A DNA stretch of 32,591 bases, from IMG/VR virus record IMGVR_UViG_3300030012_002475, positions 1 through 32,591 of that record, one strand, 5' to 3'. The notes beneath the pieces are model-generated. The model was not told where the DNA came from, made no database searches, and saw nothing but the letters and a program-made list of their open reading frames with translations. The DNA is from a virus. The position numbers were made by a program, and so were the translations under genes. Of this stretch, positions 15,453 to 22,669 are shown in pieces (the stretch's first letter is position 1; each line of letters opens with the position of its first letter).

Positions 15453-18400
15453 TCTTCTTCTTGCAAATTTTTTAAGGGATCAGACATCACATTTAGCCTT
15501 TCCTCTGGACTTAATTCTGTCTCTGACTCTTGAGCTTCTGGCTCTTGTTTTTCTTCTGGTGTTGGCTCTGGAATTAGTGGCTCAACAATAACCTTACCGT
15601 TTTCATCGGTCCAATCGGTGTTATACATGTGCTCATCTTGACGTTCACCAACAACCATCCAGCTAATGGAATCTGTGCAGGTGTTATCTTGGGCCTCAAT
15701 GGTAAGAATGTTTCCGTCAACGCTAGAGCGTACAGCCGTCCATCCAGACTCATTAGTAGTAAAGCTTTGTACATCACGACAAAGTAGAACAAATGTTCCA
15801 TCTGTCATGTCTGATGCCATATCTATGTTTACTGATGCAAGACCATCAACCAAGTCAACACGACCCCTGTAGATCAAGTCAGCTTGTGGACTTTCCAAAA
15901 ATGAATGAACTAGGTTGTGGGTGTCTTTCTTGGATTCTAGTGGGTGAGCAATTTTAAATGAACCAGATCCCTTGGACACAGTGCTAAAAATAGCTCCACC
16001 AGAAGAATTGATTGATGCAACTTCACCGCCACTGTTCTCAAACTTAATAAAGTCGTTAGAAGTAGTTCCTGCACCATTGCGTAAAAACGTCATCGTGGGA
16101 CAAAGCGAGCTGTCCTCGTCGTTGACTACAATGCTTCCTGAACCGCCGCCGTTTACACGGAACTCGCCTGATACATCAAGAGTGTGACCGGGAGATATAC
16201 CGATGCCTAATTTTCCATCAGAATCAAACCTAGCTATTTCATTGGAACTGTCCTTATAAAATGCAATGTTGCCAGCAGTAGATCCTCCGGCCATGATTAT
16301 AGATGTCATTGCTGACCCACTGCTGTTGTCGTTCCTGAAAACAAAGTTTCCACTGTTGTCTCGATAAACTATGCCAGTTCCAGATGCTTGGTCATTTGAC
16401 CAATCAGCTCTAGCCCAACTTGAAGCATCTCCATTGTTAGCAAATATAGCAGCTTCAGCAAAAGAACTATCTCCAACAGTGTGAATAGGTGCTTGAGGGC
16501 TTGTGGTGCCGATGCCAACCAGCCCCGTCGCTCCGACCCGTAGCTTTTCATTCCCATCTTTGTCACTCAACTGGAGAATGCGGTCGCCTGAATTATCACC
16601 AGCATTGATTTTTAATCCGTTACCGCTGGAAGTGCTATTGGCAATCAGAGCAGCAAAATCTGTTGATGCTTCAGATAAATGTAATTTATGAGACGCACTC
16701 GTGGTGCCAATTCCCACCCTATCAGCAGAAGCATCTACAAACAGTGTACCTGAATCAAAATTGGCATCATCAGCAACAGTGAGTGTAGACGCCATATCAA
16801 CAGCTCCATCAATATCTACAGCATCAAGATTGGTAGTTCCATCAACGTCTATATCCCCAGATATATCAAGATTTGTAAATACTGAGGTTCCTACAGCCGT
16901 AATCTTGTCATTAAATGTAGCAGCTCCAGCGGCTGACATATCAAGCGTTAATGCAGTAATTTGTACTCCACCATCACTACCATTAAACAAAATGTCCTTA
17001 TCTGAAACAGAAGAAGCAACAATAAGATTGCTTGCACTATTTGCAAATCTACCAAATTGGGTTCCATCGTCTTTTAATCGGATGTCTGCACCATCAGCAT
17101 CTAGGATAATATCCCCAGACGAGTCGATAGTAACATCAGTCCCGTCATTAGTAATTGTGTCTAATGCAATGGAGCCAACATTAGTAATGTCGTTGTCATT
17201 AAAAGACGTTGCTCCTAGGCTAGTTGTGCCAGATGCCGTAATGCCGTTATCTTTTATAAGAACGCCATCAATGGTTACGCCAGATGCAGAAGTAGTTTCT
17301 GAAATTGTGTTAGTAGTTATAGACTGACCATTACTAACAACAATGTTGTTAGATCCAGTAGTGTTACCAACAGCAAGAACTTCAGCCAAAGTATCAGACG
17401 TTGCAACCTGAGCATCCACATAAGCAGTGGTGGCTACCTTGGTTGAGTTGTCTCCAGCACTTTGGGTAGTTGCCGTTACACCATCAGCTAAAATACCAGA
17501 AAGTGTTGTAGCAGTAAGAAGGCCGCTGCTTGAGTTGAATGTCAGGTTTGATCCACTCTTAGGCCCAAGGCTACCAGTAGCAGCGGTAGCAAACAGTGGG
17601 AAGCAGGTTGTGTCCGAAGATTCATCGGCTACCGTCACTGCACTTACCGTGGCAGCACCGCCAGCAGCTATAGCAACAGCACCACTAACATTACCAAAAA
17701 TTTGATCCTCTAGGTTAGAAAAAGTAATTTTACCATTACCGCTATCGGTGTTGTCCACCATTATAACAAAGTCATCTTGAGCGATGCTTGTTTCAGTGGC
17801 TAGTTCATTGAGGTCCAACGCGACAGTAAGCGTTTGGCTGCTAGCTGTAGTGTCCAAACCAGTTGCACCAGCAATAGTAAATGTCTGGCTATCTAGGTCT
17901 ACTGAGCCACTTCCACTATCTCCAGCAAAGTCTAGGTCCTCAGCAGTCAGTTGAGTGTCAACATACGCTTTGATGCTCTGTTGTGTAGCAAGGGAAGTAG
18001 CAGAGTTAGAGGACATATTATCCTCATCCAATATTGCCACTTCCGCAGGAGCGGCAGCTCCACCAGAAACATTGCCAAGAACCTTGTAGTCTGCTAAGTT
18101 TTCTATCTTAGCCTTTGTGACATTGCTGTCTGCAATAAGAGAGGTGGTAATGTTGGCGGCAGCAATCTTAGCTGTAGTTACGTTACTACCTGCAATTTTA
18201 GCAGTGGTCACTGCACTTGTTGCAAGCTTGCCAGCACTGATACCAAGATCCTTTACAATTATTTTGCCACCAGAAAGCTGGGTCGTGGAGTCATCAACTG
18301 CTCCAGATGCAAATGTTGCACTATCAACAAGTGCATTAAGATTGGTAGACGTTACTTGATCGCCATCTGAATATGTAGTACCTTTGCTTAAAATAGCCAT
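15449..18400 (-). CDS. Tail fibre / host-recognition protein
   Basis: A 983-residue beta-rich protein of low complexity. The N-terminus (residues 1-60) carries a short motif, DGDQVTSTNLNALVD, common in marine phage fibres. Residues 63-102 form four 10-residue repeats (VTTAKIA type). Later come motifs such as DGVTATTQSAGDNSTKVATT, then many aspartate, serine and glycine rich strands. The last 45 residues are acidic and proline-rich (PTPEEKQEPEAQESE), probably disordered. I see no self-cleaving chaperone domain. It should trimerise and bind the host surface. It directly follows the tail nozzle gene with overlapping TAATG, as expected for a nozzle-attached fibre. Confidence 0.75.
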   Translation of the reverse strand: MAILSKGTTYSDGDQVTSTNLNALVDSATFASGAVDDSTTQLSGGKIIVKDLGISAGKLATSAVTTAKIAGSNVTTAKIAAANITTSLIADSNVTKAKIENLADYKVLGNVSGGAAAPAEVAILDEDNMSSNSATSLATQQSIKAYVDTQLTAEDLDFAGDSGSGSVDLDSQTFTIAGATGLDTTASSQTLTVALDLNELATETSIAQDDFVIMVDNTDSGNGKITFSNLEDQIFGNVSGAVAIAAGGAATVSAVTVADESSDTTCFPLFATAATGSLGPKSGSNLTFNSSSGLLTATTLSGILADGVTATTQSAGDNSTKVATTAYVDAQVATSDTLAEVLAVGNTTGSNNIVVSNGQSITTNTISETTSASGVTIDGVLIKDNGITASGTTSLGATSFNDNDITNVGSIALDTITNDGTDVTIDSSGDIILDADGADIRLKDDGTQFGRFANSASNLIVASSVSDKDILFNGSDGGVQITALTLDMSAAGAATFNDKITAVGTSVFTNLDISGDIDVDGTTNLDAVDIDGAVDMASTLTVADDANFDSGTLFVDASADRVGIGTTSASHKLHLSEASTDFAALIANSTSSGNGLKINAGDNSGDRILQLSDKDGNEKLRVGATGLVGIGTTSPQAPIHTVGDSSFAEAAIFANNGDASSWARADWSNDQASGTGIVYRDNSGNFVFRNDNSSGSAMTSIIMAGGSTAGNIAFYKDSSNEIARFDSDGKLGIGISPGHTLDVSGEFRVNGGGSGSIVVNDEDSSLCPTMTFLRNGAGTTSNDFIKFENSGGEVASINSSGGAIFSTVSKGSGSFKIAHPLESKKDTHNLVHSFLESPQADLIYRGRVDLVDGLASVNIDMASDMTDGTFVLLCRDVQSFTTNESGWTAVRSSVDGNILTIEAQDNTCTDSISWMVVGERQDEHMYNTDWTDENGKVIVEPLIPEPTPEEKQEPEAQESETELSPEERLNVMSDPLKNLQEEE
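18095..18214 (-). repeat. Four 10-residue repeats in the tail fibre
   Basis: Residues 63-102 of the fibre consist of four consecutive decapeptides of the form (A/N)-(V/I)-T-T/K-A/S-K/L-I-A/E-x-x. They read AVTTAKIAGS, NVTTAKIAAA, NITTSLIADS and NVTKAKIENL. The 10-residue period suits a triple-beta-helix or spiral shaft near the attachment end. Length changes by repeat slippage would be easy here. Confidence 0.7.
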
Positions 18401-20580
18401 TATTCTGCTTTTTGTATGCTTCTAAAGGTTATAGCTCCTGCCACCTTCAATGCTCTTAGTCTGGGTCGCCCCTTCGTTGTTGTTAATTTAAATTGTAATC
18501 CGTAGGCCCGTTTGTTACCAAATCTTCCCCGAAGAGACACATCTTCATCAATAGCAAGCTCTTCACCGTTTATGTTAGAAACTGTTCCAAGATCTATAAT
18601 AGCATCAATGTTCTCTGTTATTGCTTCCAAATTTGCATCAGAAACATTGTTTTCAGAAGATTGAAGATGTAGTTCAAAGTTATTCCACTTCTTCCGGTCT
18701 ATAGAACCAACAGTAAACATCCTGCTTGTGGCCGATGCTGCTACCAAAATAGAACTAGTTGAAGCTCCAATGGCATCAACATATAGATCTACGTCATCTA
18801 CTCTGGACTCATATTTGTGAACTCCACCATTTCGGTTAATAGCATAAACGCCTCTCTGAACACCTGATCCACCAGTCAATAAATATGTATACTCCCAGTC
18901 TGAATCATTTATGGAATCCAACGACTCCCATTGTTTGTTAAGAAAGTTGTAAACCAAAAGAGCGTTGTTTGTAGTGGAGTCATCCAAAGGAACAGCAATG
19001 TAATACCTGTTATCAAAGTAAGCAGAAACTGCTTTATCTGCATGATCCTTGTTGATTCTTGAAATGGTTCCTTGGATAGAAGAAGACAATGGTACGTCTT
19101 GCCCTCTCAAGTTGTAAAGATCAACGAAGTCTAGTGCGTACACTCCATTGTCGGATAGAAACATTAGCTTGTTTCCTATCTGCTGTATGCTGTTTCTAGC
19201 CGAACACCCTATATCGCTTGTGATAACTTGTGATACACTGCTTCCCAGATCTAAGCTATTCTTTACTGTGTGAATGCTATTGCGGTTGAATACTACCAAT
19301 TGGTCATCAGAGAAAGAATGAAAACCTACAATAAAATCTGCTTCTCCGGCATTAAATCTAAACTGACCGTAAATTCTGTCATACGTGTTTTGATCTAATA
19401 TATCCGAAAACAAAGCCTCATCCAAAATATTTCTATCGGTAATTGTGGCAGATCCAGAAGACCCGGTAATATCAAACTGATATGGAACAACCAACCTACG
19501 TTGATGTGGTACACCAAACTCTGGAGCCGGCATATGGCTAAATCCTAGACCAATAGATGTTTTCTTTTCAACGGTAGCACTTTTGTTTGTAGCATCAGCT
19601 TTGTCCGTAACAAAAGTAAAGGTTGTTGAGTTTGTTATAGATCTAACCCGAACGGTGTCACCAACAGAATAACCAGAACTTCCTGCGGTAGTCACTGTAA
19701 GCTCATCTCCAACCAACAAAGAACTAGTGCTAGACACTGTAGCCGTTGCTATACCTGATGCAAAATCAAGATCAGTAATTGATAAAGGTGTAGGTTGAGT
19801 GTATGCTCCGTTAGAAACTAAAGAGAATGTAGTGGTGCTAATGTCTCCATCCCACTGCATAGCTATCTTTCCCTTTCGGAATATAAACAACTTGTTAAAT
19901 GCTTGAACCACATTGCTTCCTCTCGGAACCGTTTCTCCGGTAGGATATGTAAGAGATACTGTAGTTGCCCCACTGTCCGAGGTTTTTACCAATACTGTTT
20001 TATTGGTTCCAACAACTGCAATGTAAGATGTTGCGTCGTTGTTCGGGTCTGAAAATTCACAAGATGCTTCTATAAAGTTTGAATCACTATCTAGCAGTCT
20101 CATTCCTTTGACGACCATAGTGCCGCCCGGTGTTTCAGCTAAATCAGTAACTGTGTAGGTTATTGTATCTGCATCTACAACTGTAGCGATAAAGTTGCCG
20201 TTCGGGTCAACGCTTCCAGAAAACGTCAATCCGCTAATGTTCACCCCAGTATCAGTTGTTATGTTGTGGGCTGAGTTAAAATTAACCTGTATGGTTGAAT
20301 CGGTCCTAGAGAATGAAGCAACTCCACCACCTATATTGGTTGAGTCATACAGCTTGAACGGAAGAGAAAGAACAGCAGCAGAAAATGGAGCAGAGAATAT
20401 ATCCATGCCTTTCCTTGGTTGCCACTCACCATTCAAATCCATTCGTCCATTTTCAGAAACAGACAAGACTCCAGAAGGAAGCTGGTCAGGTCTAAGCTTA
20501 TTGTTAAAGCCAGAAAAGCCTTGGTCTAGGTCTTCTACAACCCGATCATCGGCCTGTCCATATGTATCATATCTAGCCAT
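18400..20580 (-). CDS. Tail nozzle / tail tubular protein B-like
   Basis: The 726-residue beta-rich protein begins with a motif typical of podovirus nozzle or stabilisation proteins: DLDQGFSGFNNKLRPDQLPSG followed by NGEWQPRKGMD around residues 15-60. The rest is a series of beta repeats consistent with a propeller or platform fold, including YIAVPLDDSTTNNALLVYNF and GVYALDFVD segments. In T7-like particles gp12 forms the nozzle below the gp11 adaptor and carries fibres. Here the gene lies just before the fibre gene and downstream of an adaptor-like gene. Its ATG directly follows the stop of the last micro-gene (TAGATG). Confidence 0.75.
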   Translation of the reverse strand: MARYDTYGQADDRVVEDLDQGFSGFNNKLRPDQLPSGVLSVSENGRMDLNGEWQPRKGMDIFSAPFSAAVLSLPFKLYDSTNIGGGVASFSRTDSTIQVNFNSAHNITTDTGVNISGLTFSGSVDPNGNFIATVVDADTITYTVTDLAETPGGTMVVKGMRLLDSDSNFIEASCEFSDPNNDATSYIAVVGTNKTVLVKTSDSGATTVSLTYPTGETVPRGSNVVQAFNKLFIFRKGKIAMQWDGDISTTTFSLVSNGAYTQPTPLSITDLDFASGIATATVSSTSSLLVGDELTVTTAGSSGYSVGDTVRVRSITNSTTFTFVTDKADATNKSATVEKKTSIGLGFSHMPAPEFGVPHQRRLVVPYQFDITGSSGSATITDRNILDEALFSDILDQNTYDRIYGQFRFNAGEADFIVGFHSFSDDQLVVFNRNSIHTVKNSLDLGSSVSQVITSDIGCSARNSIQQIGNKLMFLSDNGVYALDFVDLYNLRGQDVPLSSSIQGTISRINKDHADKAVSAYFDNRYYIAVPLDDSTTNNALLVYNFLNKQWESLDSINDSDWEYTYLLTGGSGVQRGVYAINRNGGVHKYESRVDDVDLYVDAIGASTSSILVAASATSRMFTVGSIDRKKWNNFELHLQSSENNVSDANLEAITENIDAIIDLGTVSNINGEELAIDEDVSLRGRFGNKRAYGLQFKLTTTKGRPRLRALKVAGAITFRSIQKAE

Positions 20581-20829
20581 CTAACAATTCCAAGCCCTTC
20601 TACTCCAGTAGTTTGCAGACAGTTTATTGTTTTTACCTTTAATCCCACCTGACCTAGCACAATAACTTTTCTTACGTGCCGGGTTATTCTTTTTGATGCT
20701 CATGTTAGCATCACCAAAGCGTACAATTTTTTCCTTACCACCCTGACAAGCTTTCACGACAAACTTCTTCCCGCCAGAAACATCTCTGCGGGGTGAGTTA
20801 CACTTCATTTTTTTCTTATCTATTGCCAC
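20581..20829 (-). CDS. Small basic cysteine-containing protein (micro-gene 8)
   Basis: This 82-residue protein starts at a GTG preceded by AAAGGT at good distance. An internal ATG seven codons later has a weaker site. It has about a quarter lysine and arginine plus four cysteines (C9, C28, C57 and the C-terminal C82) that could bind zinc or form bridges. The C-terminal block, SYCARSGGIKG and LSANYWSRRAWNC, is a conserved signature I recognise from small proteins of marine phages, without a known function. It overlaps the previous gene by 14 bases and abuts the tail nozzle gene. A nucleic-acid-binding or virion-packed role is speculative. Confidence 0.7.
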   Translation of the reverse strand: MAIDKKKMKCNSPRRDVSGGKKFVVKACQGGKEKIVRFGDANMSIKKNNPARKKSYCARSGGIKGKNNKLSANYWSRRAWNC

Positions 20830-21064
20830 TTCTGACCTTTGCTTTGGGTGTGTTAGCTACAACTGTTTTTCCTTTGGCTCCTGCTCGTTTCTTTTTCTTT
20901 GCAGTGGCGGCTCTTTCAGCCTTGGTAAGACTTAGTGCCTTGCGTCTAGGCAAGCACCTATCTGGCATCTTCTTGTTAGGAGAAGTTCCACACTTGCCCT
21001 TGATAGATCCATCAACACCTATCCTCACCCAATCTTGCTTTAGCCACTGTTTAAGTTGAGCCAC
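20816..21064 (-). CDS. Small basic protein of a DUF5872/6321-like family (micro-gene 7)
   Basis: The 82 residues start at a GTG overlapping the preceding stop (TAGTG). An N-terminal block, WLKQDWVRIGVDGSIKGKCG, is followed by MPDRCLPRRKALSLTKAE and a run of lysines (KKKKRAGAKGK), ending in a disordered basic tail. The C-G-T-S and DRCLP motifs with two cysteines are typical of a small uncharacterised family found in marine bacteria and viruses. The family number is from memory and should be treated as approximate. It is part of a run of eight consecutive tiny basic genes. Its function is unknown. Confidence 0.7.
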   Translation of the reverse strand: MAQLKQWLKQDWVRIGVDGSIKGKCGTSPNKKMPDRCLPRRKALSLTKAERAATAKKKKRAGAKGKTVVANTPKAKVRSGNR

Positions 21065-21237
21065 TATCTTCCCTTTCTTTTACCGCCTTTGGCTTTCTTA
21101 GCGTAGTTGGGGTCCTTGCAATACTTGCTCGCAGCTAGGTTAGCGTAAGCAGAAGGGTACGTATCAAACGTCCTTCTAGCCCAAGCTTTGCCCTCTGGAC
21201 AAATCTTACCTCCGCTTTTTGCTTTTTTTCTTGGCAT
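21064..21237 (-). CDS. 57-residue Lys/Arg-rich protein (micro-gene 6)
   Basis: I found this ORF by reading the minus strand; it starts at an ATG at 21237 with GAAAATG-poor context and ends at a TAG sharing a base with the next GTG. The sequence has basic ends and a central conserved-looking block, KICPEGKAWARRTFDTYPSA followed by NLAASKYCKDPNY, with two cysteines (C13, C40). Seventeen of 57 residues are Lys or Arg. Similar short proteins occur in marine phage genomes. The conserved central block argues that it is a real gene. Its function is unknown. Confidence 0.66.
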   Translation of the reverse strand: MPRKKAKSGGKICPEGKAWARRTFDTYPSAYANLAASKYCKDPNYAKKAKGGKRKGR

Positions 21238-21328
21238 TGACAATAGCTCTTAATGTTTTGGCCTGACCAGCATGAGCCTTTGAAGCCTTTTCTAGTTTCT
21301 TAGCTACGTTTATTAGTTTTCTTTCCAC
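21206..21328 (-). CDS. 40-residue Lys-rich helical peptide (micro-gene 5)
   Basis: This short frame starts at a GTG at 21328 with an AAAAGGG ribosome binding site seven bases upstream. It overlaps its neighbours by about 30 bases on each side. Fifteen of 40 residues are Lys or Arg. The sequence forms one amphipathic basic helix (LINVAKKLEKASKAHAGQAK), then TLRAIVNAKKKSKKRR. A peptide of this kind is seen beside the same neighbours in other marine phages, as far as I recall. Overlapping coding on both sides and a good ribosome binding site support reality. Its function is unknown. Confidence 0.55.
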   Translation of the reverse strand: MERKLINVAKKLEKASKAHAGQAKTLRAIVNAKKKSKKRR

Positions 21329-21437
21329 TGTTTTTCCCTTTTCTAAGTGCTATAAAATCAGCACGTGTGATTTTTTTTCTAGGCGGTGCAACAGCAGCAA
21401 TCCGTTTTTGAGCTGGGCTATATTTACTAAAAGGCAT
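21300..21437 (-). CDS. 45-residue basic protein (micro-gene 4)
   Basis: The frame starts at an ATG at 21437 that shares a base with the preceding stop (TAATG). It encodes 45 residues with 14 Lys or Arg. The opening motif FSKYSPAQKRIAAVAPPRKK, followed by ITRADFIALRKGK, is a recognisable small-protein pattern of marine phages. No membrane segment, signal or cysteine is seen. Strong translational coupling with micro-gene 3 and conserved-looking opening support a true gene. Its function is unknown. Confidence 0.62.
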   Translation of the reverse strand: MPFSKYSPAQKRIAAVAPPRKKITRADFIALRKGKNSGKKTNKRS

Positions 21438-21619
21438 TATTTCCCCCTAGACTTCATGGCTTTAGTTTTTGCAGTTTTAGATAATTCACCAAAATGATAT
21501 AATCTCTTAGAGGTTTTACCATGTGTTTTTCCAGAGTGAAGCTGACCATTGGGCATTTTATGCTTATTGCCCTTATGCTCTGTTCCGTCTCGGAAATAAT
21601 GTTTTGATGACTTAGCCAC
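21437..21619 (-). CDS. 60-residue His/Lys-rich protein (micro-gene 3)
   Basis: This protein starts at a GTG at 21619 two bases after the preceding TAG. It is rich in lysine, histidine, glycine and serine, with GTEHKGNKHKMPNGQLHSGK and THGKTSKRLYHFGELSKTAK segments. Histidine spacing might bind metal, and the composition also suits a flexible nucleic-acid-binding peptide. It has no cysteine or hydrophobic segment. It is coupled to micro-gene 4 by TAATG. Similar proteins in marine phages are annotated only as hypothetical. Confidence 0.65.
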   Translation of the reverse strand: MAKSSKHYFRDGTEHKGNKHKMPNGQLHSGKTHGKTSKRLYHFGELSKTAKTKAMKSRGK

Positions 21620-21621
21620 GA

Positions 21622-21681
21622 CTAATATTTCTTTCCTTTACCTCTACCTTTGCCTTTTGGTTTTTTGTATGAGTAAGCCAT
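21622..21681 (-). CDS. 19-residue basic micro-peptide (micro-gene 2)
   Basis: The frame MAYSYKKPKGKGRGKGKKY starts at an ATG at 21681, overlapping the preceding stop as TAATG, and ends with a TAG two bases before the next GTG. Eight of 19 residues are Lys or Arg and the others are mainly Gly and Tyr. AGGAAGACG a few bases upstream provides a ribosome binding site. Very small genes are hard to prove from sequence. Its exact fit between two coupled genes is the main support. Confidence 0.48.
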   Translation of the reverse strand: MAYSYKKPKGKGRGKGKKY

Positions 21682-21746
21682 TATCGTCTTCCTTTCTTTT
21701 TCATAGTTTTTCCCATTGGGCATTTTTTACGTTTTCCGTAGTCCAT
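21681..21746 (-). CDS. 21-residue basic micro-peptide (micro-gene 1)
   Basis: This frame begins at an ATG at 21746, one base after the stop of the coiled-coil membrane protein. It encodes 21 residues, ten of them Lys or Arg, with one cysteine (MDYGKRKKCPMGKTMKKKGR plus a final R). It ends in TAATG, coupling it to micro-gene 2. The same style of tiny Lys-rich peptide recurs in the following frames. It is the first member of the basic cassette. Function unknown; expression unproven. Confidence 0.48.
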   Translation of the reverse strand: MDYGKRKKCPMGKTMKKKGRR

Positions 21747-21747
21747 A

Positions 21748-22098
21748 TTATTCTTTTACGTCTAAGTAGTTTTTGTCGCGTAGTTCAAAATTAACACTAC
21801 CATAGCTTTTCAATTTTTCTACAGTAGAGCCAATTTCCTCCATGTTTTTTTCAAGGTATTGTAACCTTAAATTCTGTTCAGCATCGTCAGGTAGGGCTCC
21901 TAGCTCTCCTCTAGGCCATTTGATACGGAACTCAGTGTTCATCCCTATCTCGACATCCCTAATGTTCTGAGCGTTCTCTAGCGACGCTATACGCGAAGTC
22001 ATATTCACGTAACCCGTCACACTAACTACAGTAAACCCAATCAACGCAATCAAGTTGCGTAGGGGTATAGTCACTGCTGTCTTGTCGCTTATATCCAT
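21748..22098 (-). CDS. Membrane-anchored coiled-coil protein, possible spanin-like
   Basis: This 116-residue protein has one N-terminal transmembrane helix at about residues 13-32 (LRNLIALIGFTVVSVTGYVN). A long charged coiled coil follows at about 35-105 (MTSRIASLENAQNIRDVEIG and NLRLQYLEKNMEEIGSTVEK). The topology, with cytoplasmic tail, single membrane anchor and periplasmic coiled coil, resembles inner-membrane spanins that help disrupt the outer membrane. It follows two likely holin genes with overlapping start and stop. No outer-membrane lipoprotein partner was seen, so the spanin role is an inference. A virion or anchor function is the alternative. Confidence 0.5.
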   Translation of the reverse strand: MDISDKTAVTIPLRNLIALIGFTVVSVTGYVNMTSRIASLENAQNIRDVEIGMNTEFRIKWPRGELGALPDDAEQNLRLQYLEKNMEEIGSTVEKLKSYGSVNFELRDKNYLDVKE

Positions 22099-22508
22099 TA
22101 TTTAACTTGTGAACTTCCAAAGTAAAATCCTAGTAAAGCCAGCATCCCTTGCCTAACCTCGGGCAATAATACAAACCCTTCTAGGTTTTTCCATTTGTCT
22201 GCTCCGATTCCTAAAAATTTAAATATGCCTAGTTTCTGTGCTTCAATGGTTACTGGTATGTCAAAGAAGGCCATGATGAAGGGAGCAAATACCACTGAAA
22301 ACAGGATGCACATAGCGATGAGTTTTCTAACCCATGCTCCACTTTCTCCTGATCGCTCTGCTGCTCTGTCTGCTGAAGCATCCGAAACTTTCTGCTTCTG
22401 AATCATGGACTTGATAGCATTTGCTTGGATATTCATTTGAGCCGAGATTAGTTTCATTACAAATCCCGTGACTCCACCTCCAAGCATTGCCACTAGTTCA
22501 CCACTCAT
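22098..22508 (-). CDS. Multi-span membrane protein, holin candidate
   Basis: A 136-residue protein with about three hydrophobic segments. These are a glycine-rich N-terminal one at residues 4-20, a strong one at about 62-82 (LIAMCILFSVVFAPFIMAFF), and one near the C-terminus at 118-132 (GMLALLGFYFG). A polar, charged loop with QKQKVSDASADRAAERSGES lies between the first two. This layout resembles the three-segment holin class found in gene transfer agents and marine phages. It begins within the stop of the 54-residue membrane protein (ATGA). Holins permeabilise the inner membrane to trigger lysis. The call rests on topology and position. Confidence 0.58.
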   Translation of the reverse strand: MSGELVAMLGGGVTGFVMKLISAQMNIQANAIKSMIQKQKVSDASADRAAERSGESGAWVRKLIAMCILFSVVFAPFIMAFFDIPVTIEAQKLGIFKFLGIGADKWKNLEGFVLLPEVRQGMLALLGFYFGSSQVK

Positions 22509-22669
22509 CGCTTTCTTAACTCTACTATTGTTTTATATATCCAAAGACCCATGTATGCTATCGTGCATACCGAAGCGATAATAGACATTACCTCGCTAAT
22601 CCCTTGAAAAGAAACAGCCAGTATTGATCCTGTCGCTCCTAGTCCAAGCTTGTTCAGCTCGGGGTTCAT
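22505..22669 (-). CDS. 54-residue membrane protein, small holin candidate
   Basis: I read this short frame on the minus strand. The ATG at 22669 shares a base with the upstream stop (TAATG), and the stop overlaps the next ATG (ATGA). It encodes a polar N-terminus, a semi-hydrophobic stretch (LGATGSILAVSF), a transmembrane helix at about residues 27-48 (SIIASVCTIAYMGLWIYKT) and a basic C-terminus ELRKR. This fits a small single-span holin or holin regulator. Perfect coupling on both sides strongly supports a real gene. It could also be an antiholin paired with the three-span protein. Confidence 0.66.
   Translation of the reverse strand: MNPELNKLGLGATGSILAVSFQGISEVMSIIASVCTIAYMGLWIYKTIVELRKR

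Follow-up and report, generated by a model that had tools for sequence, protein, structure and literature searches.

What common task, if any, is carried out by eight consecutive genes that encode only 19–82 residues each and whose products are all strongly basic? This arrangement is found on the minus strand at 20581–21746 of the IMG/VR virus IMGVR_UViG_3300030012_002475, whose 32,591 bases constitute the whole stretch analyzed here (the window). Its other genes include those of a large terminase (phrog_2), the major head protein (MCP, phrog_1328), and a head-closure/nozzle protein (phrog_578 and phrog_3287). A first-pass annotation had described eight coupled minus-strand frames with very basic products, and the frames and their lengths were reproduced exactly (Table 1). 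The 116-aa gene and g21 are separated by a 1-nt gap, g21 and g19 are joined by TAATG, a 2-nt gap separates g19 from g60, and a second TAATG connects g60 to g45. The frames of g45 and g40 overlap by 29 nt and those of g40 and g57 by 32 nt, which are followed by a TAGTG junction (g57/g82a) and a 14-nt overlap (g82a/g82b), and the TAG stop of g82b directly abuts the ATG of the nozzle gene. Four of the genes use GTG starts. The cassette is located approximately 2.9 kb downstream of the MCP gene, and in the lineage of the window it is flanked by membrane-protein genes and the nozzle gene, outside the head block. The 116-aa gene that bounds this slot is gained or lost among relatives, among which the 136-aa probable membrane protein marks its 5′ side. 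A strong terminator-like hairpin (24105–24075, minus strand), composed of 13 pairs and a T-rich tail, lies downstream of the MCP gene and a 153-aa gene and separates MCP from the cassette; the genes past it, including the cassette, probably need their own promoter or read-through.

Table 1. Cassette genes and neighboring genes in the window.
Feature	Position	Strand	Length	Description
g21	21681–21746	−	21 aa	MDYGKRKKCPMGKTMKKKGRR, K+R 0.48
g19	21622–21681	−	19 aa	MAYSYKKPKGKGRGKGKKY, K+R 0.42
g60	21437–21619	−	60 aa	GTG start, motif HKMPNGQLHSGKTH
g45	21300–21437	−	45 aa	Homolog of EF-hand-like 41-aa protein of cyanopodovirus cassette
g40	21206–21328	−	40 aa	GTG start, motif L.+ASKAHAGQAK
g57	21064–21237	−	57 aa	Motif C..GKA...YPSAYAN...C, PHROG 27331, N-terminal half of DUF5872-type proteins
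g82a	20816–21064	−	82 aa	GTG start, PHROG 23735, homolog of DUF5872 C-terminal part
g82b	20581–20829	−	82 aa	GTG start, Tlr6F/DUF5754-like domain, PHROG 7595
Nozzle/head-closure gene, downstream neighbor	18400–20580	−	726 aa	PHROG 3287 and 578
116-aa gene, upstream neighbor, bounds slot	21748–22098	−	116 aa	PHROG 20984
Probable membrane protein, upstream neighbor	22098–22508	−	136 aa	PHROG 38283

The basicity of the products was also borne out: the K+R fraction of the eight proteins is 0.27–0.48, the pI is 10.3–11.9, and the net charge is +8 to +20 per protein, which amounts to +109 for the set. As a null, 281 spurious ORFs of 18–90 aa lying inside large genes were evaluated; they averaged 0.106 K+R, and only one of them combined a K+R fraction of at least 0.27 with a net charge of at least +8. 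This indicates that the basic composition of the eight frames is not due to chance. Homologs of all eight were present in other IMG/VR contigs, which were scanned with g82a and with MCP, 80 loci being kept from each scan among at least that many matches. At least 13 distinct sequences were obtained for g21. Among the matches listed, g21, g19, and g60 were seen only within the lineage of the window, and g40 was patchy among near relatives and frequent in a sister lineage. The families are common throughout marine phages, three of the single-family scans giving at least 600 matches each. The pooled dN/dS values (NG86) were 0.06 for g57 and g82b, 0.13 for g82a, 0.18 for g60, 0.24 for g40, 0.26 for g45, 0.31 for g21, and 0.38 for g19, the reference values being 0.11 for the nozzle gene and 0.14 for MCP. 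All eight genes are thus under purifying selection, and of the refuting conditions named in the first-pass annotation, neither a lack of conservation nor a dN/dS near 1 was observed, though the values of the short genes are less certain because the pairs are non-independent and the g45, g40, and g57 frames overlap, and estimates are weak for genes of 19–21 codons. The eight genes are real, conserved, and coupled.

The complete set of eight was detected only in L003, the closest contig, among the matches listed. Contigs neighboring it retain g57-g82a-g82b, while the other members are swapped, gained, or lost. Small basic ORFs occur in every intact slot of the relatives, and nearly all of these slots hold 4–9 of them. 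The locus, in which relatives carry other sets of mostly 4–9 basic ORFs, is therefore modular and variable rather than a fixed eight-gene unit. The position of g82b is taken by a 97-aa form in L100 and by a DUF6321 form in L015, that of g57 is occupied in some relatives by a 44-aa protein containing ...FPSAYASG..., and proteins within the same slot of L083 and L108 match PF19197. In the nearest isolate-level record, Phage C75C1 (OQ984151; L001:2850–4720), the basic ORFs are divided between both sides of a 130-aa membrane-protein gene; the slot therefore rearranges.

Individual members had been said to recall uncharacterized marine phage families, and this was substantiated with PHROGs 7595, 23735, and 27331 and with DUF5754, DUF5872, and DUF6321. 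PHROG matches were obtained for g57 (27331, E = 5.6e-24), g82a (23735, E = 1.3e-20), and g82b (7595, E = 7.9e-14), all catalogued without known function; the same search gave no match for g21, g19, g60, g45, and g40. In the Pfam search of the eight proteins, nothing reliable appeared except the match of g82b to DUF5754 (PF19058), whose 22.9 bits (E = 8.7e-5) are under the gathering score of 27.4, and a relative sharing the g82b domain (L329) scored 38.4 bits, above this cut-off. Profile comparison (hhalign) related g82b to its T4-like set at 100% and also to DUF6321; a relationship between g82a and g82b was rejected (0.1%). The AlphaFold2 model of g82b (pLDDT 81.5, pTM 0.70) consists of a β-hairpin and two helices, and a search with this predicted fold independently led to the structural models of ICP1 ORF125 and of proteins annotated as XkdF. 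A comparison of the predicted folds with solved structures yielded no match, and the search of solved structures by sequence gave none either, two weak matches for A2 being designed proteins.

For g57 and g82a, the scores of each protein and of their concatenation were below the gathering score of DUF5872 (PF19197), and the correspondence was established through relatives matching PF19197 and natural fusions: positions ~1–43 of the DUF5872 profile are g57-like, and positions ~48–112 are g82a-like. Both domains were found on one chain in 15 ORFs within 80 contigs; in one example (L336:5001–5408), g57 and g82a of the window align to its two halves. Because such natural fusions occur, it is suggested that the g57 and g82a products act together. 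Conserved cysteines are present among the cassette proteins. In other lineages (L036, L045, L051, L055, L058, L060, L068, L070, L077, and L079), the g82a homologs possess an extra C-terminal tail, GG...RGCGAVM..RRKRTK, and comparable tails are found on a g45 homolog (L045:417–605) and on a g57-like HTVC023P protein (L169:2995–3378). The idea of a shared targeting tag was dropped, as the strict motif is confined to the g82a homologs.

A second cassette was found when the g57 search reached cyanophage P-SCSP2, in which the interval between scaffold and MCP contains five small basic ORFs. They are c57, a relative of g57; cEF, an EF-hand-like protein of 41 aa that matches EF-hand models; c50, of 50 aa; c5872, a DUF5872 protein; and c6321, a DUF6321 protein. 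Profiles were compared with hhalign using sets built from one strict pass. The pair g57–c57 gave 99.9% with a forward E-value of 4e-33, against 77% for its reversed control; g45–cEF gave 96.4% (E = 1.3e-9; reversed control 1.5%), g82b–c6321 gave 91.8%, and g82a–c5872 gave 80.4% (reversed control 0.6%). With the exception of g57–c57, the reversed-profile controls stayed at 0.5–1.5%, and non-partner pairs were below 3%. Neither g40 nor g60 was accepted as a homolog of c50 (0.2%). The gene order F57>F82a>F82b is common to the window and cyanopodovirus cassettes, and F57>F82a is retained in most contigs of both types. A set of 80 contigs was fetched with one query, a DUF5872 protein, and hence represents related phages; it includes two clades whose MCPs are only ~30% identical. 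The scaffold gene was located in 64 of the 80 and was upstream of the cassette in all 64; MCP was located in 55 and was downstream in all 55, and both were always within 3.5 kb. A cyanopodovirus relative of g45 (L167:3171–3296) contains a recognizable EF-hand loop, DANKDGKISREDF, of which g45 of the window retains only KITRADF, the acidic ligands being gone; g45 is possibly a basic protein derived from a decayed calcium site.

Further links to the head module were obtained for the g82b domain. It is located C-terminally in ICP1 ORF125 and N-terminally in a Vibrio 1.101.O protein, both of which match Peptidase_S78_2 (XkdF) with E-values of 7.5e-10 and 3.1e-9, respectively; both genes belong to the head module and lie a short way upstream of MCP. 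The Vibrio gene directly follows the portal gene. In ICP1, gp123 and gp124 are the decoration and scaffold proteins (PMC10945586), so that ORF125 comes next. In the Melnitz phage, the domain forms a single protein with a cytidylyltransferase, and in HTVC008M a g82b-like gene directly follows the cytidylyltransferase gene. Purified S-SM1 virions yielded a putative cytidylyltransferase, T4-GC190 (PMC3037559), and its name suggests the same family as phrog_3041. A placement of the HTVC008M gene beside portal proved wrong; because portal lies elsewhere, its position was not counted as head synteny. The T4-like versions begin with an acidic leader, which in 36 of the 43 unique sequences ends in (L/I)xE immediately ahead of the basic domain, 30 of them at one fixed offset; shuffles gave a mean of 17.8 and a maximum of 28. 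(L/I)xE is the cleavage consensus of the gp21 prohead protease and a mark of capsid-targeting leaders. The HTVC008M genome encodes a gp21-type protease, and natural g57-g82a fusions exhibit comparable sites before their first domain (LLYE, LIYE, and ILSE). On the other side, some g82b relatives, including those of SIO1 and HMO-2011, are away from head genes, and basic domains are also fused to PAP2 and YkuD/LysM enzymes without an obvious head role. In large multidomain phage proteins (L221:1131–2987, L223:1283–4282, L329:3948–7055, and L329:7112–9421), these basic domains occur together with those of cytidylyltransferase, PAP2, LysM, and YkuD. No head-gene link of their own was seen for the g21, g19, g60, and g40 families in the contigs compared.

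These comparisons show that the families of g45, g57, g82a, and g82b have cyanopodovirus members whose genes lie between scaffold and MCP, and that in other phages such domains are fused to one another or to proteases of head maturation. The location, DNA binding, and purpose of the window proteins themselves are what we infer. With moderate confidence, we interpret the cassette products as small basic proteins that gain entry to the (pro)head and remain associated with the DNA, in the manner of the T4 internal proteins. As the shared job, the first-pass annotation had offered condensing DNA inside the capsid, acting on the nucleoid or ribosomes of the host, or acting on membranes during lysis; the capsid interior is now favored, with condensation itself a candidate, and lysis is disfavored, because of the scaffold–MCP cassettes and the fusions of the g82b domain to head proteases. 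The cassette would thus form a late modular operon of small basic proteins, whose translational coupling to the nozzle and tail genes may time their production with assembly. The proteins would enter the prohead through their charge or through the scaffold, contact DNA non-specifically, and offset a small part of its charge, and they may exit with the DNA into the next host. In the T4-like relatives, the same domains appear in a precursor that has a leader, or in a polyprotein, with (L/I)xE sites, and in the window each has a micro-gene of its own. For g21, g19, g60, and g40, only membership of the cassette and equal basicity suggest the same role. One set of the proteins carries approximately +109 against ~65,000 phosphates in 32.6 kb, so that bulk neutralization would need hundreds of copies of each; local DNA organization or an injected function is as plausible. 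The literature searched contained no virion proteomics, DNA-binding, or mutant/knockout data for stand-alone members.

The same head linkage could be explained, though we think it unlikely, by head-assembly cofactors that bridge scaffold, portal, or protease to DNA or capsid, reside in the prohead transiently, and are lost at maturation, leaving none in the virion. The scaffold–MCP position in cyanopodoviruses and the head-protease fusion fit such an assembly role equally well. A strong positive charge is however more typical of DNA-associated lumen proteins, many different families at one locus are unusual for assembly factors, and for the T4-like version there is a link to a cytidylyltransferase of a family that mature virions apparently retain. 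Somewhat more doubtful is host takeover, in which late cationic proteins bind the nucleoid, RNA polymerase, RNA, or ribosomes within the cell. It would account for products that are very basic, small, modular, and different among close relatives, as host-interaction loci tend to be, and for homologs distant from head genes. It is less easily reconciled with genes that form part of the late structural strand, show coupling to the nozzle gene, and are conserved beside head genes in a distant phage group, and with purifying selection on the core members that matches the structural genes in strength. That the products are cationic, membrane-active peptides that aid destruction of the envelope at lysis is improbable: the upstream genes 22098–22508 and 22505–22669 resemble membrane proteins and the g82b homolog of HTVC106P overlaps a peptidase M15 gene, but the homologous cyanopodovirus cassette belongs to the head block and has no lysis genes in its vicinity, and conserved cysteines, a predicted β-hairpin with helices, and protease fusions are unlike such peptides. 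Chance or over-called ORFs within a lysine-rich, low-complexity stretch, for which only the shortness and simple composition of g21 and g19 speak, can practically be dismissed given the homologs of all eight frames, the dN/dS range of 0.06–0.38, the precise coupling, and the rarity of equally basic spurious ORFs (1/281), and are already refuted for g60, g45, g40, g57, g82a, and g82b.

If the cassette indeed encodes capsid-lumen proteins, a testable role would be given to many hypothetical genes of common ocean phages. No member family has a known function despite being widespread in marine phages, and a specific prediction for this orphan set follows from the placement beside head genes, the fusions to proteases, and the leaders with (L/I)xE. 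A broader and quite tentative idea, which we rate well below the capsid-lumen reading, is that a shared pool of basic domains (Tlr6F/DUF5754, both DUF5872 halves, DUF6321, and the EF-hand-derived domain) serves viruses in general as a DNA companion or as a module for entry into the head. This pool would be deployed as micro-gene cassettes in podoviruses, as cleaved precursors in T4-like phages, and as fusions to head proteases or enzymes elsewhere, and the presence of its members in giant and polinton-like algal viruses might then reflect a chromatin-like or capsid-targeting system of unrelated dsDNA viruses.

The T4 internal proteins IPI, IPII, IPIII, and Alt are small and basic, vary as a set, and are proposed DNA companions in the capsid. 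A leader with the (L/I)xE site, as they have, occurs on the T4-like g82b homologs and on the g57-g82a fusions but is missing from the window proteins, which begin directly with the basic domain. The tests made revealed no sequence relation between the window proteins and the T4 internal proteins, and the likeness would be functional only, not family membership. DUF5872 is elsewhere one protein, whereas the window has two separate coupled genes. Tlr6F, which is identical to DUF5754, is described as a protein of no known function whose conservation extends over polinton-like viruses, virophages, Megavirales, and a number of phages (PMC4642659; PMC12220804), giant viruses being included; the literature examined proposes no head role for it. 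The window version, assigned by PHROG 7595 and by a DUF5754 match below the curated cut-off of PF19058, differs in being one gene of an eight-gene cassette. The chlorovirus PBCV-1 also has basic DNA-binding virion proteins associated with its packaged DNA, but those identified include large ones of ~60–70 kDa and kinases (PMC3281028). For dsDNA phage genomes, the same study states that there is no evidence that basic proteins neutralize much of the charge (PMC3281028). If the families at issue here are capsid-lumen proteins, the claim that dsDNA phages make little use of basic proteins alongside their DNA would have to be revised. The families are already catalogued as DUFs and PHROGs, and it is the cassette and its head linkage that appear to be undescribed. 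The view of the first-pass annotation that the cassette is new as a unit holds for the open-access literature searched, in which neither a head-linked, multi-family basic cassette common to unrelated marine podoviruses nor the presence of its small proteins in virions is described and the papers on P-SCSP1u and P-SSP7 say nothing about it; this view needs qualification in that the locus is variable and a related, unnamed cassette exists in cyanopodoviruses. This cassette of the T7-like cyanophages (P-SCSP2, S-SBP1, and relatives), annotated merely as hypothetical proteins, differs from that of the window in that g21, g19, g60, and g40 have no counterpart there and c50 has none in the window, and in that it stands between scaffold and MCP while the window cassette is elsewhere, but the two share four homologous families, all of small and basic proteins.
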